43,085 nucleotides of DNA from a virus. The stretch covers positions 1-43,085 of IMG/VR virus record IMGVR_UViG_3300013772_000012. One strand, 5' to 3'. The notes under the pieces are model-generated. The model did no database searches, had not been told where the DNA came from, and was given only the letters and a program-made list of their open reading frames with translations. This document shows positions 3,465 through 40,602 of the stretch, piece after piece. The position numbers and the translations under genes are program-made. The first letter of the stretch is position 1. Each line of letters opens with the position of its first letter.

Positions 3465-4262
3465 GGTCGTATCTCCTGAAAATAAGCTAATTTGCCTGTT
3501 TCCCACAGGCGCGGGTCTGAAAAACGATAACAACCACGCCCAGAAGCCTATTGCGGGCGGTTTTAGAGGGGCTACAGGCGTTTTTGCAATAGGGGTGGCC
3601 ATTGGGGCCGAGACGGCTGAAATTGGCACAGGCGCAGCGGCGCGTGGCGCTAGAGGCGCAATTCCAATGGGAGACGAGGTGATTGCTGGTGGTTTTGGTT
3701 GAGCCGTGCCAAGGCTGGCCACATGCGCCGGAATGTCCAAATCCTCGGTGATGATAAGTTGGGCGCGGTGGATATAGCCGATGCGTACTGCCTCGCCATT
3801 GAAGCCGCCATTGATCCGGTGCGTCACTTCATGTTCGTTACCTGCAAGGGCCAACGGTATCAGGCCATTATCAACCCAAAACTGGCAGGATGCGTGAACA
3901 CCCTCATCAGCGTTCAAAAGTAATTCTGGGTGATTGACTAGATCAAGGCCAGTTTCCTTGGCAATCCGTGTGTCATTGTCTCGGCCAGTGAGCATATCCG
4001 GCCCCATGCCCGCGAACTTTACGCCATCGCCAGGATTAACATTTCCCATTCGACCTTGATAAGCAGCGCCAGAAGCATATTCACGGAAGGTTTTGAACCC
4101 GTCCGTTTCTTCTGCCCACTGGCCCAATGCCATTGCAGCCACGCGCTTATCAGCCATCCCGTAGATTGGGAACCAATAGTTTACAGCAGGCGCAAGCGCG
4201 GTGATAATTTTTTCATTGGCGATTGGGGCAATGGCACGTAGATGCTCTTTGGTGAGAATCAT
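3030..4262 (-). CDS. GH19-type endolysin fused in frame to a hydrophobic C-terminal membrane domain (410 aa)
   Basis: Residues 1-180 resemble phage glycoside hydrolase family 19 lysins, which cut the glycan strands of peptidoglycan: MALGQWAEETDGF carries the likely catalytic Glu of the family's HE/EE motif, followed by YQGRMGN, GDGVKF and GPDMLTGR. A Pro/Ala linker (190-240) leads to a hydrophobic FWAWLLSFF stretch. From Met267 comes a different protein with two membrane segments (NIVSLLSAFGGLTALLP and AAAAMVVGILVQALIPAG) and an Ala/Thr tail. Usual GH19 phage lysins end near 200-270 residues, so this is about 140 too long. The junction reads like an intergenic region that lost its stop (see the internal start at 3464). 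It lies between a small membrane protein and the spanins. Confidence 0.75.
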   Translation of the reverse strand: MILTKEHLRAIAPIANEKIITALAPAVNYWFPIYGMADKRVAAMALGQWAEETDGFKTFREYASGAAYQGRMGNVNPGDGVKFAGMGPDMLTGRDNDTRIAKETGLDLVNHPELLLNADEGVHASCQFWVDNGLIPLALAGNEHEVTHRINGGFNGEAVRIGYIHRAQLIITEDLDIPAHVASLGTAQPKPPAITSSPIGIAPLAPRAAAPVPISAVSAPMATPIAKTPVAPLKPPAIGFWAWLLSFFRPAPVGNRQISLFSGDTTMTTAVTAPTPTVKTTSFLNTLNIVSLLSAFGGLTALLPKILTEFGTAGLIAAAAMVVGILVQALIPAGTAVAVENTLADTVLPAIAAIDPALKVALDQVARGLHDAAAATTANTAATVASANAVVDNTTVTAANTTVTKAAAGA

Positions 4263-4426
4263 AGGTGCAGTCCAGTGCTAACGCCTCCAAGCTGCAATAG
4301 AATAATCACGCAGGCAATGGCAACGATGACAACGAGAATTACACCGCCTGGAGGCGGTAAGCGTGGATAGGCCCACACTATTCCCGCAACTGCCAAACAT
4401 GCAATAACGAGTGTGATGATACTCAT
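4259..4426 (-). CDS. two-span small membrane protein, holin candidate (55 aa)
   Basis: ATG 4426 overlaps the upstream stop and the TGA overlaps the endolysin start (both as ATGA), so it is translated as a link between its neighbours. Residues 2-19 (SIITLVIACLAVAGIVW) and 28-47 (GGVILVVIVAIACVIILL) are strong membrane helices joined by a Pro-rich turn (PRLPPP). A two-helix protein directly before the endolysin is the position expected for the holin that releases or activates it, making this the best of the holin candidates here. Homology was not testable. Confidence 0.65.
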   Translation of the reverse strand: MSIITLVIACLAVAGIVWAYPRLPPPGGVILVVIVAIACVIILLQLGGVSTGLHL

Positions 4427-4791
4427 GCCGCAGGAACCACGGGAGCTGTTGGCGCTACAGGAGCCGCTGTGTCAGTCACAAGCGCATCGGTCGCAGCGGT
4501 GAGCGCTGTAGCCTGAGCGTCAGTGATGGCATTGGCTTGAGCCGTAGCAAGTGCAGCAGCAGCCGTTACCGCAGCGGCTTCCAAGTCTGCAATCTTTTGG
4601 TTTGCAGCAGCCAATTCAGTTGCGCGGTCTTTAGCCTGTGCATCTGATTGTGTCAGGCGAGTTAGGTTTTCTTCAAAGGTAGCCATTCGTTTCTCCATTT
4701 TAATCATAAGTTCAATGAGCCAAACAATGAGTGCTTCCAGCGTTCGGCCCTTAGCTGGAATTTCGTGGTGATGGTCTTGTGTTTCGTTCAT
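4423..4791 (-). CDS. coiled-coil protein of the lysis region (122 aa)
   Basis: The N-terminus has a His run (NETQDHHHEIP), then an amphipathic or hydrophobic helix (LEALIVWLIELMIKMEKR) and a long coiled coil rich in Ala (LAAANQKIADLEAAAVTAAA), ending in a Pro/Val/Ala tail. A second possible start lies at MATFEENLTRL, with GGAG a few bases upstream, which would omit the hydrophobic helix. The gene overlaps both neighbours by ATGA-type junctions. Function unknown; a membrane-associated or structural coiled coil is the safest reading. Confidence 0.55.
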   Translation of the reverse strand: MNETQDHHHEIPAKGRTLEALIVWLIELMIKMEKRMATFEENLTRLTQSDAQAKDRATELAAANQKIADLEAAAVTAAAALATAQANAITDAQATALTAATDALVTDTAAPVAPTAPVVPAA

Positions 4792-5588
4792 TGGTGATCC
4801 CTATCAGCAGCGGGCGGCTTTTCAAGTATAGCGCCAAATCCTGCTTTAACAATCATAGCCTTTGTGTAAGAGATCGGCACGGCAAAACTAACCGCCGACC
4901 CACGTATGCCTGCGCTCAGTGTGCCAATCATTTCGCCATTATCATTGAGAACAGAACCGCCTGAATTGCCACCGATTACAGGGGCAGAGATTTGGAAAAC
5001 CTTGAAATGTTTGTCGTCAATATCAAGCATCCGCTGCGGTGCCGAAATGATGCCGTCGGTGATCGAGTCGTCAAAGGTGATGGCCGGATTCCCAACGACA
5101 TAGACTTTTAAGCCGCGCTCATAGCTATAAGTATCAGGGGCCAATGGTGCGGCGGCTAATGGGATATAATCCGTGTCAATAACTTGGATTAGCGCAATGT
5201 CGTTGTCCTTATCGGAACTGATAATCTTGGCCGCGTGGTCTTCGGTAGCGACGATTTCATAATTGCGGACTTTGTTGGTGGTGATTTTGAGAGGAACAAG
5301 CTTCTGCTTGGTGATTTCTTTAATCTCGCCCGTCTTAGGGTCAACTATCTTTTCTGTGGTTTCTTGGAATAAATCATCGACACAATGATAGGCGGTGAGA
5401 ATGAGACGCTGGGGTACGGAAATAATTGTGCCAGAACAAACGCCGCCAACAATAACGTTAGTATCTTCAATCTGGGTGTTCATCTTGTCAATGTCCCATG
5501 CGCGGGCCGTGCTGGTTAACGCTAACCACCAAACCACAGCAAGCGCAAGCAACGAGACAGCGATCAAGATTTTTTCAGGAAGTTTCAT
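4788..5588 (-). CDS. trypsin-like serine protease with N-terminal signal anchor (266 aa)
   Basis: A hydrophobic segment (residues 7-29, ILIAVSLLALAVVWWLAL) should export or anchor the protein, putting the protease domain in the periplasm or on the outer side of the inner membrane. The chymotrypsin-fold triad is visible: His68 in LTAYHC, Asp130 in DNDIALIQV and Ser209 in GGNSGGSVL, with VGGVCSGTII at the start of the fold. Family members (DegP/S1-like) cleave peptide bonds with this triad. The gene overlaps both neighbours by four bases within the lysis cassette, so a part in envelope breakdown or processing of a lysis protein is plausible, though not shown. Confidence 0.8.
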   Translation of the reverse strand: MKLPEKILIAVSLLALAVVWWLALTSTARAWDIDKMNTQIEDTNVIVGGVCSGTIISVPQRLILTAYHCVDDLFQETTEKIVDPKTGEIKEITKQKLVPLKITTNKVRNYEIVATEDHAAKIISSDKDNDIALIQVIDTDYIPLAAAPLAPDTYSYERGLKVYVVGNPAITFDDSITDGIISAPQRMLDIDDKHFKVFQISAPVIGGNSGGSVLNDNGEMIGTLSAGIRGSAVSFAVPISYTKAMIVKAGFGAILEKPPAADRDHQ

Positions 5589-38001: not shown

Positions 38002-38021
38002 TCAAACATCATAAAGCGGTG
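38002..38021 (-). repeat. direct repeat of the terL 3' end, copy 1
   Basis: Minus-strand CACCG plus CTTTATGATGTTTGA encodes the last codons and stop of TerL. The ATGATG inside it and the ATG a few bases later are also the candidate starts of the accessory gene. Nineteen of twenty bases match the copy at 37554-37573. Confidence 0.7.
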
Positions 38022-40602
38022 GAGGATTCGGCTTGTGCTGCATCCTCTCATTGATATTCTCAAGATGCTCGGCAGAACGAACAAGCATACCTGTTTTACG
38101 CAAATGGCTGAGGGCCATACTTGCAGAATCGACCAAATCGTCGTGCTTAGCTTTCGGGAATTGAGCGCACTGTGTAATCACCATATCGGCCCACGATCTG
38201 TCTGGCGCATAAATCATGCCTTCGGAAAACAAGTGTTGAACTGAATACAACCGTGCAATCTTGTCCATTGCGCCGGGGTTAATCAATTGTACTCCCCAAC
38301 TCTCACGATTGTAAAGCCTTTGTATTTCCTGCGCAACCGAAATCCCAGATGCCTTGCCTTCAATCAGCAACAGATCAACCTTCATGTCCTTGCAGGTCTT
38401 GGCAACTTTGGTCACCAAGGCGTGTAATTCAAGCCTCTCTGCCCATGCCGTGGTCAGAACGACCTTTGGATGCTGTTCGGCATATTTGCGTCCATGTTCC
38501 ATTGAGTAATCGTATAGCGTTCCAGCGCGTGAAACCGTGCGCGTGGGCTGTGCGACAATATCCTGTGAAAACACGCCCCAGACAGTCAGCGCTGACATAT
38601 CATTCTCGGTCTTTTCAGTGTAAGCCGTATCGAGAGAAGCGCACACAAAGTCCAATGGCGGGTAAACGTCATCATCCCATTTGATCCACCAGTCGCGCTT
38701 GATAATGCCGCCACCGCGTGGTTCAGGGGACTGTTGATGTTGGCCAGCGGTAGCAAATGGCCCCATGGCTTTTTCGTCACGATCAACAACTTCAGGCGGG
38801 AAGCGTTCTGGGAATAACAATTCTCCTTCTTCTTCTCGTGGATCGCTATAACCAAGTTGTGTTTCATGAGCGCGGGAAGGATCGAATCTCATGGGCAGAC
38901 AAATATGATCATATCCCAAATCTTTTTCGAGAATAATGCCGCTCACGTCCTCTTCGTGCAATCGCTGCATAATAACAACAATTGCTGACGTTTTTGGATT
39001 ATTGAGACGCAATGGCACAGCTTCAGTAAACCATTCGTTGGTTGAAGCACGAACAGCATCGGACGATGCACCTTCAACACTTATTGGGTCATCGATCAAA
39101 ACTCTGTCGCCACGCGCCCCGGTAATTCCGCCAGCTGCGATGGATTGCCGGAAGCCAGTCGCGGTGTTCTCAAATTTTATTTTCTGGTTATTATCTCCAG
39201 TAAGAGTTACGCGGTCTCCCCAAAATGATTGATACCATTCGGATTGAATGAGCCTACGCATTCGCAAGCCGTCACGCACAGCCAAGTTCTGTTCATGTGC
39301 GGCGCAAACATAACGCAAGTGAGGCATGTTCTTTGGGCCCCATTCCCATGAGGGCCAGAAACAATTTACTAGGAGGCTTTTCATTGTCCCGGGTGGAATA
39401 TTGATCAACAAACGATTGTATGGCGTCCCATCTTCGAGAACCGCACCAGCGGTGATTGATTCGAGATGGGCACAGTTATGAACCAATAAGTTATCAGCGA
39501 AGTAATTGTTGTTGCCTTCAACCTCTATGTTATAGACCGTATCTGGTATCCGTATTTCTCGCTCAATGCTAGATACATGAGATTCGACTGTTTTATAGCA
39601 AAGTCTTTCGATTTCCTGTACTCTTGCGCTCGATGACATATCCGACACAAAGCCACCAAGTTCCATAGTTCGTTGTTGGTTGCCTCTCTGTCGATATGAT
39701 GAACGTCCAGTTTCCTTTCCGCCGAGCAGACGAAACAAATTCCACCCTCGCGGGCGTGTATTTTCCTTTTCGCCGCCTTGAATGCCGTAGGATATGGAAC
39801 CTGAGCCTTCCCATCCACATAGGCTGGGTTTCGTTCCCCCCTTCTCCATTCCCCAGAACATTTGTGACCGCAGAAAACGCTCGGCACTGATGGCTTGTGC
39901 CAAACAGGATTTCCACAATTTCGACAGGGGACGTATTTTCCCCTCGTTATTTTTGCTGGGCGACACTTTATGCAAACGCTCCCAGCCCCACGCGATTTTG
40001 GGCCTCCACACATGCTGCATATTCGTTTTTCTGGTTCGTATCTTGCCTGAGCAAAACATGCCCTGCCGCAATATGTGTCCCCCACAATCTTCGCTGGACT
40101 TCTCTGAAAGCCCTTCCCGCACTGCTTGCAATTGAATAACACGATCTCCAACCCTCAACTGATCTGCTGGCACATATCCACGGCCATCGATAAAAACTGG
40201 ATGATTACCAGTCATTGAGACACTAGCATGATTTACTTTGAGTGTATATAGAGGCTTGCCCGGATTTTTCATACGCGCCAGAATTTTTTTCCATTCTGGC
40301 TTTCCGAGGGAGTGGTTGAAACTCAGAACCTCCCCAGCCCAGCCACTTTCGACAATATCTCCAATGGCCATCGGGCCATAGCGCGTTTCCAGTATGACAT
40401 GAGCGGGCAGGCAAATAAAATCCACGTGCCAATTATGTATGTAAGGCTGTCCTGGCTCAATGATTGGCCATGCGTAGCGAATGAAATTGGCTAGTGAGTT
40501 CTCACACTTTTTCTTTTGGATTGCCCTTAGCGTAACGCTTGAATCAATTGGGTCTGATGTTCCTGTGATTTTAGCGAGGAGCGGGTGTTTGACTATTGCC
40601 AT
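38002..40602 (-). CDS. terL: large terminase subunit interrupted by an intein (866 aa, 553 after splicing)
   Basis: The extein has a terminase ATPase with Walker A in NIPPGTMKSLLV, Walker B in GDRVLIDDPIS and a coupling region in IVVIMQRLHEEDVSG, then an RNase-H-type nuclease with ASLDTAYTEK, LIEGKASG and KHDDLVDSASM. Together these package and cut genomic DNA at the portal. The intein fills residues 64-376, about 25 residues before Walker A, and splicing would restore HVDFI-CAHLES. After splicing the length is normal (about 553). No strong ribosome binding site precedes ATG 40602; a 19-codon peptide ends four bases upstream, so coupling may be involved. The gene's last 20 bases recur after the accessory gene. 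Confidence 0.9.
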   Translation of the reverse strand: MAIVKHPLLAKITGTSDPIDSSVTLRAIQKKKCENSLANFIRYAWPIIEPGQPYIHNWHVDFICLPAHVILETRYGPMAIGDIVESGWAGEVLSFNHSLGKPEWKKILARMKNPGKPLYTLKVNHASVSMTGNHPVFIDGRGYVPADQLRVGDRVIQLQAVREGLSEKSSEDCGGHILRQGMFCSGKIRTRKTNMQHVWRPKIAWGWERLHKVSPSKNNEGKIRPLSKLWKSCLAQAISAERFLRSQMFWGMEKGGTKPSLCGWEGSGSISYGIQGGEKENTRPRGWNLFRLLGGKETGRSSYRQRGNQQRTMELGGFVSDMSSSARVQEIERLCYKTVESHVSSIEREIRIPDTVYNIEVEGNNNYFADNLLVHNCAHLESITAGAVLEDGTPYNRLLINIPPGTMKSLLVNCFWPSWEWGPKNMPHLRYVCAAHEQNLAVRDGLRMRRLIQSEWYQSFWGDRVTLTGDNNQKIKFENTATGFRQSIAAGGITGARGDRVLIDDPISVEGASSDAVRASTNEWFTEAVPLRLNNPKTSAIVVIMQRLHEEDVSGIILEKDLGYDHICLPMRFDPSRAHETQLGYSDPREEEGELLFPERFPPEVVDRDEKAMGPFATAGQHQQSPEPRGGGIIKRDWWIKWDDDVYPPLDFVCASLDTAYTEKTENDMSALTVWGVFSQDIVAQPTRTVSRAGTLYDYSMEHGRKYAEQHPKVVLTTAWAERLELHALVTKVAKTCKDMKVDLLLIEGKASGISVAQEIQRLYNRESWGVQLINPGAMDKIARLYSVQHLFSEGMIYAPDRSWADMVITQCAQFPKAKHDDLVDSASMALSHLRKTGMLVRSAEHLENINERMQHKPNPPPLYDV
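39475..40413 (-). mobile_element. intein within TerL (313 aa) with intact splicing blocks
   Basis: The first residue is Cys (CLPAHVILETRYGPMAIGDI, block A). Block B is MTGNHPVFI with the conserved His at residue 71, followed by DQLRVGDRVI. Block F is TVYNIEVEGNNNYFADNLL and block G ends VHN, with the extein continuing at Cys, the next nucleophile. All residues needed for class I splicing (Cys1, His in block B, penultimate His, terminal Asn, Cys+1) are present. The 205-residue middle has no endonuclease motif in this frame; an HNH gene lies in the +1 frame across exactly that part. Confidence 0.9.
39525..40142 (-). CDS. HNH endonuclease nested out of frame inside the TerL intein (205 aa)
   Basis: I start at GTG 40142, nine bases after GAGGG; a TTG at 40151 is possible. 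The N-terminus has a zinc ribbon (FNCKQCGKGFQRSPAKIVG, then TYCGRACFAQ), two further Cys pairs (RICSMCGG, YVPCRNCGN with VFCGHKC), and a full HNH core: GGICFVCSAERKLDVHHIDR, then NLVALCRICHRAQ. Its stop TAG (39525-39527) falls inside the intein's block F codons. The frame is +1 relative to terL. The layout is that of a free-standing mobile HNH enzyme, yet it sits exactly between intein blocks B and F, where an in-frame homing domain would be. Expected to cut an intein-less terL allele, which is inference. Confidence 0.85.
   Translation of the reverse strand: MLFNCKQCGKGFQRSPAKIVGDTYCGRACFAQARYEPEKRICSMCGGPKSRGAGSVCIKCRPAKITRGKYVPCRNCGNPVWHKPSVPSVFCGHKCSGEWRRGERNPAYVDGKAQVPYPTAFKAAKRKIHAREGGICFVCSAERKLDVHHIDREATNNELWNLVALCRICHRAQEYRKSKDFAIKQSNLMYLALSEKYGYQIRSIT

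Follow-up and report, generated by a model that had tools for sequence, protein, structure and literature searches.

How an intein can carry a nuclease gene that forms no part of its own polypeptide is the question raised by the gene for the large terminase subunit (terL, product TerL) of the phage represented by IMG/VR record IMGVR_UViG_3300013772_000012, positions 1 to 43,085; the whole stretch of 43,085 nucleotides that was analysed is called the window in what follows. The intein interrupting this gene is open from end to end, and between its N- and C-terminal splicing blocks the same DNA, read in the +1 frame, holds a complete open reading frame (ORF) for an HNH endonuclease. The explanation proposed here, to which we assign a probability of about 85%, is that of a mobile intein whose homing endonuclease (HEN) is an independent overlapping gene, translated by internal initiation. 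Both ORFs, the families and folds of the intein and of the HNH, the recurrence of the layout, selection on the two frames and the empty sites of relatives were all computed directly.

Two reading frames in the TerL intein

The terL precursor ORF (38002-40602; this and all the features below lie on the minus strand of the window) encodes 866 residues with no internal stop, composed of N-extein, intein and C-extein, and its product matches the terminase large subunit family phrog_38 (E=4.7e-72). The N-extein (40414-40602), whose C-terminal end ...WHVDFI was placed by alignment with L002 and relatives, is followed by the intein (39475-40413; 313 codons), which starts with CLPAH and ends in LVHN just before the +1 Cys, and by the C-extein (38002-39474), which begins with CAHLE, carries the phrog_38 match over residues 376-845 and has a +1 Cys invariant in all five TerLs aligned. 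Excision of residues 64-376 yields a TerL of 553 residues, which can be aligned over its full length to the intein-less TerL of MW202675 (61% identity); the insert is thus continuous and in frame at a conserved extein site (DxI|CxHLE), and uninterrupted homologues carrying DFICAHLE exist. The Pfam intein model PF14890 matches TerL residues 70-376 (E=9e-11) and TIGR01443, for the intein C-terminal region, is matched as well (E=1.2e-4). Across the 17 inteins compared, invariant residues mark each splicing block: C1, T10 and G13 in block A (40375-40413; CLPAHVILETRYG); T68, H71, P72 and Y80 in block B (40171-40212; TGNHPVFIDGRGYV), where T68 and H71 form the TxxH motif; N303, F305, L310, H312 and N313 in blocks F and G (39475-39537; VYNIEVEGNNNYFADNLLVHN). 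The nucleophile C1, the T68-H71 pair, the C-terminal H312-N313 and the +1 Cys are therefore all in place.

A profile of the 17 inteins matches mini-intein structures (DnaX mini-intein 7cfv, E=1e-23), and mini-inteins are also the best structural matches of the AlphaFold model of the intein (7cfv, E=7e-7, TM 0.85 on the target). In this model most of residues 1-100 and 271-313 have a confidence score (pLDDT) above 90, and the score stays below 50 almost throughout residues 103-260, which are predicted to be disordered and make up most of the intein-frame linker overprinted by the HNH (residues 91-270; 39604-40143). Family searches of the terL product gave no in-frame nuclease match in the linker, so that this is not a conventional intein with an in-frame HEN; the intein frame being unbroken, neither is it a fractured gene or split intein. 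A group I intron was set aside (Rfam was not used) on the grounds that the insert leaves the terL ORF uninterrupted and has every intein block.

Between blocks B and F, the +1 frame holds the nested ORF, which encodes 205 residues from a GTG (39525-40142), or 208 in a longer version starting from the TTG at 40151 (39525-40151); its TAG stop (39527-39525) falls within block F. It matches phrog_1271 (E=9e-18) and, slightly below the family cutoff of 21.4 bits, the Pfam HNH family (19.9 bits, E=8e-4), while a profile search matches the phage HNH endonuclease structure 5h0m (E=4e-8). The AlphaFold model has a mean pLDDT of 84, rising to 90-96 in the core; Foldseek matches of the whole model are weaker (EcoKMcrA, E about 1e-3). 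The catalytic core (39624-39752; CFVC...LDVHHID...NNELWNLVALCRICH) presents the His-Asn-His arrangement together with a zinc ribbon, and R131, C136, C139, H148, H149, N161, C166, C169 and H170, in the numbering from GTG, are invariant in 17 of 17 nested HNHs. The original prediction, made from the letters of the window, had described an intein frame open for 313 residues with every splicing block and nothing recognisable between blocks B and F, and in the +1 frame a complete HNH with zinc ribbons and a CFVC, VHHID and CRICH core, starting at its own GTG after GAGGG and stopping inside block F; this description holds throughout.

In the explanation that we favour, ribosomes reading terL straight through would produce a precursor from which the intein, made of the splicing domain and the disordered linker, would excise itself to leave the 553-residue TerL; a zinc-ribbon HNH nuclease of about 205 residues would be produced separately by other ribosomes, initiating within the terL messenger RNA at GTG 40142 or TTG 40151. 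In terL genes that lack the intein, this nuclease would cleave the conserved DxI|CxHLE site, and repair of the cut gene would copy the intein and the nuclease gene together. We infer from the sequence that the intein splices, that translation starts internally and that the empty site is cleaved; in particular, homing at DxI|CxHLE is suggested by the patchy distribution of the element, intein-less relatives with an empty site being found, and by the standard knowledge of intein HENs. It is also plausible that the level of the endonuclease could be adjusted independently of the terminase.

Selection on both frames and the competing explanations

If both frames are used, both should bear traces of selection. 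Synonymous codons were permuted with the HNH protein and its codon usage held fixed (2000 permutations): the intein frame of the window has 0 stops against 11.2 expected, a value reached in 0 of the 2000 permutations (P<1/2000), and the third frame contains 6, close to the 7.1 expected. Intein-frame stops are likewise lacking in 19 of the 19 +1 inteins tested, with P(0) at most 0.002, whereas in the controls (free-standing relatives, the in-frame HNH of L098 and the fractured gene of L150) the stops in each of the other two frames lie near the mean of the permutations, the HNH of L150 having 36 of them in the intein frame. Stop avoidance in the nested copies and none in the controls indicates that the need for translation keeps the intein frame free of stops; for most inteins with a nuclease in the +2 frame (see below) the test is weak, only 0-2.7 stops being expected. 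This deficit of stops, together with homologues of the same layout, excludes a chance origin of the nested HNH.

The codon position richest in substitutions also changes along the element: in the splicing blocks it is the third position of intein codons, within the nuclease the third position of HNH codons. Between the window and L091, the rates at the three intein codon positions are 0.41, 0.32 and 0.61 in the N part (p=0.005) and 0.50, 0.24 and 0.30 in the HNH region (p=5e-5); between L165 and L172 they are 0.09, 0.06 and 0.37 (p=5e-16) and 0.12, 0.37 and 0.15 (p=1e-11), respectively, and the same switch of the wobble position is seen between L128 and L136 (p=4e-4 in the splicing blocks, 5e-7 in the HNH region). 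Among seven inteins at the same site the mean identity is 0.36 for the extein, 0.47 for the splicing domain and 0.44 for the HNH, with no significant correlation among the three; the intein-frame linker has an identity of 0.277, against 0.279 for shuffled linkers, and the absence of stops appears to be the sole constraint on the linker polypeptide. Judged by these comparisons, both readings of the overlap are under selection, and of the readings of the locus, the original claim that the same DNA encodes both a TerL precursor that is spliced and an endonuclease of its own has the best support.

Where translation of the HNH would begin is less clear-cut. The candidate initiation region (40140-40156), delimited by inspection of the sequence and a start scan, contains GAGGG (40156-40152), TTG (40151), GGAG (40149-40146) and GTG (40142). 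A mini-ORF of six sense codons in the +1 frame (40155-40175; ATG TGC CAG CAG ATC AGT TGA) ends just ahead of the HNH start, its TGA (40157-40155) shortly preceding the TTG and the GTG. In L088, L091, L097, L114 and L126 the block B motif G-x-G-Y-V is coded with TAT-GTN, which gives an ATG in the +1 frame with a purine-rich stretch just upstream; the equivalent of the mini-ORF ATG is likely to be the HNH start in several relatives. In the window this ATG opens only the mini-ORF, and the HNH start would therefore be GTG or TTG, possibly reached through re-initiation.

Several points weigh against the explanation favoured here. The start site of the window is weak (GTG or TTG, with modest Shine-Dalgarno matches), and the ATG usable in several relatives runs into a stop. 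The relatives at the same site are divergent, the window HNH being 36-46% identical to theirs, and selection on the window copy today is consequently read from its lineage; the higher identity of the intein than of the extein suggests horizontal spread, short of proof.

One alternative is that the HNH is a decaying relic or an unexpressed ORF and that the intein alone matters now. The window lacks the usable ATG start present in several relatives, and decay of the HEN is a normal stage in the life of a homing element; yet the catalytic and zinc residues are all intact, the codon structure of the HNH is conserved across relatives, every intein found at the TerL site of the window has an intact HNH, and true relics look different, being deletion remnants (L120 and L132, below). 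We consider this explanation unlikely, and the same holds for programmed ribosomal frameshifting near block B, which would give a fusion of N-extein, intein and HNH instead of a free HNH: the nuclease phase is indeed constant within each class (+1 or +2), but the TGA at 40157-40155 closes the +1 frame upstream, so that a shift would have to occur within the roughly nine codons that precede the first zinc cysteine, GTG and TTG starts near purine-rich stretches are present, and in the fractured L150 a separate HNH gene begins where the IntN ORF ends.

Phages are known to have HNH proteins associated with their terminases, and the HNH might serve as a partner of the terminase in packaging and not as a homing enzyme. 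Such a role is raised for the brucellaphage HNH in the paper that reports it (PMC4422536), but the HNH of the window sits within an intein, relatives with an intein-less terL predominate, mini-intein alleles lose the HNH cleanly, and the same HNH family occurs in inteins at several insertion sites, which makes this reading slightly less probable than the two preceding ones. An assembly or sequencing indel that moved an in-frame HNH out of frame, named in the original prediction as a result that would overturn it, could account for one single case, is backed by none of the analyses and is practically ruled out, since independent contigs from separate metagenomes and two isolate genomes have the same layout, two compensating indels would be required to restore the C-terminal blocks, and stops are avoided in the intein frame.

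Recurrence, loss and fractured relatives

The layout of the window recurs in many unrelated phages; the searches were seeded with the intein and the HNH of the window itself, and the counts are for this reason not unbiased frequencies. A search with a DNA pattern for the C-terminal splice junction, which took no account of the HNH, retrieved five contigs, corresponding to three distinct inteins (L088, L089 and L091), all carrying a +1 HNH in a TerL intein at the site of the window. Protein searches brought the distinct inteins of this kind at this site to eight (the window, L088, L089, L091, L096, L097, L110 and L114); at other sites or in other genes 13 inteins carry a +1 HNH, 11 of them in L116, L117, L118, L126, L128, L130, L133, L134, L136, L144 and L145 and two in cultured phages, namely Gordonia phage Clown (gp5; L176:2348-3502) and Synechococcus phage S-EIV1 (TerL; L177:1932-4478), in both of whose records the nuclease is unannotated. 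In a second class, of about 12 inteins, the +2 frame encodes an HNH_3 nuclease (L158, L159, L161, L162, L165, L169, L172, L149, L166, L173, L175 and the second intein of L096, this last one being assigned by visual inspection of its sequence), and a third consists of two inteins, in a helicase gene and a terL gene, with a DUF559/MTES_1575-type nuclease in +1 (L146:3706-4323 and L155:3682-4245). A clearly in-frame HNH was found once, in L098.

Two terL genes hold two inteins each. The single terL ORF of L096 (1227-4958; IMGVR_UViG_3300050120_000049) has one of each of the first two classes, with an HNH in +1 in the first intein (1549-2493) and an HNH_3-like ORF in +2 (4055-4813) in the second, which starts from 3843; in L133 (1914-5060) the first intein has LAGLIDTDG in frame and the second a short HNH ORF of 92 residues in +1.

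As to how the nuclease came to lie out of frame, the original prediction had offered either the invasion of a mini-intein by a free-standing HNH gene or the frame slip of an in-frame domain. Neither is supported as a recent event, because the closest relatives of nested HNHs are nested HNHs, and free-standing and in-frame relatives are distant. When the HNH alignment was searched against viral and genome contigs, nested copies ranked first and the free-standing matches were all distant; a single-sequence HNH search of viral contigs returned no matches, an alignment of the wider HNH set contained no stretch of sufficient conservation for searching, and the search for an in-frame ancestor gave only L098 (29% identity, on a long branch), from which a further seeded search gave no more in-frame cases. 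In the HNH tree the +2 class forms a single group (support 99/98) separate from the +1 members, which are spread over several groups, interspersed with long-branched free-standing relatives.

Loss of the nuclease is better documented. L120 (3507-4013) and L132 (3499-3936) are mini-intein alleles of L128, L134 and L136 at the same site, in which the intein frame is intact and a remnant of the HNH 3' end persists, accompanied in L120 by a remnant of the 5' end; they are direct evidence of HNH loss by deletions that spare splicing. L150 (1357-3771; IMGVR_UViG_3300022868_000194) has a fractured terL with a split intein, composed of an IntN ORF (1357-2115), an HNH in +1 (2102-2755) and, from 2713, an ORF for IntC and C-extein in the original frame. 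Separately, in L123 (2886-5910) and its near-copies L121, L122 and L124, terL is divided into IntN and IntC ORFs around an ORF of 341 residues, which looks GIY-YIG-like by eye and gave no Pfam match to GIY-YIG.

In-frame, overprinted, fractured and deleted states are thus all represented among the sequences compared, and the order of change is established only for the deletions. On balance it seems probable, though clearly less so than the explanation proposed for the window, that overprinting is a general way, perhaps the prevailing one, in which inteins of tailed phages carry non-LAGLIDADG nucleases, with at least three origins (HNH in +1, HNH_3 in +2, DUF559/PD-(D/E)XK-like in +1) and a phase fixed within each class, and with deletion leading to mini-inteins, and fractured split inteins arising once the intein frame is not kept open; if so, inteins with overprinted nucleases would form a class of their own, intermediate between inteins with an in-frame HEN and fractured genes.

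Precedents and meaning

The arrangement itself has a precedent, mentioned in passing, although the original prediction knew of no described case. In brucellaphages an out-of-frame HNH in terL was noted in 2015 as putatively intein-encoded, and one single-nucleotide polymorphism there alters the HNH and is silent in the terminase (PMC4422536); compared by description, the case resembles that of the window but occupies a few sentences in the section concerned, without the splicing blocks, selection test and wider survey given here. The ShiLan domain and the Pacc40 insertion, reported in 2025 in actinophage DNA methylases as a suspected homing element, likewise contain a hidden HNH gene, out of frame, within an insertion through which the host ORF continues, as is the case in the window; unlike the full intein of the window, they are described without a splicing domain, the host protein being thought to retain the insertion (PMC11855218).

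In conventional inteins, such as that of the dCTP deaminase of cyanophage CL131, which has an in-frame HNH_3 and splices in E. coli (PMC6293099), the nuclease splits the splicing domain at the same place, between N- and C-terminal blocks, but resides within the intein polypeptide, whereas in the window it is a separate overlapping gene. Group I introns with HNH ORFs also combine an independent nuclease ORF with a self-removing element; their removal takes place at the RNA level, while the window has an open host frame and a protein intein. Fractured genes, reportedly described by Dassa et al. in 2009, have a split intein, with a free-standing endonuclease gene separating its two parts and a broken reading frame that makes trans-splicing necessary; L150 looks like an example, and the gene occupies the same place in the intein as in the window, where, by contrast, the frame is open. 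Within the accessible literature (the ShiLan papers also cite a preprint on non-canonical intein architecture), what appears to be new is the recurrence in many phages, the three nuclease types and two phases, the selection on two frames, and the deleted and fractured derivatives.

Since nuclease and splicing reside in separate polypeptides, the level of the former and the folding of the intein need not be coupled. These inteins also provide natural dual-coding genes with built-in controls, in the form of fractured, deleted and in-frame relatives, for the study of overlapping genes; Clown and S-EIV1, being isolate phages, are suited to experiments on the nested HNH. A route between ordinary and split inteins is outlined, by which the origin of split inteins becomes testable. 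The annotation of phage inteins is affected as well, many seemingly empty or meaningless linkers encoding an out-of-frame nuclease missed by gene callers, and there is a real chance that a general class of inteins has been left largely unannotated.
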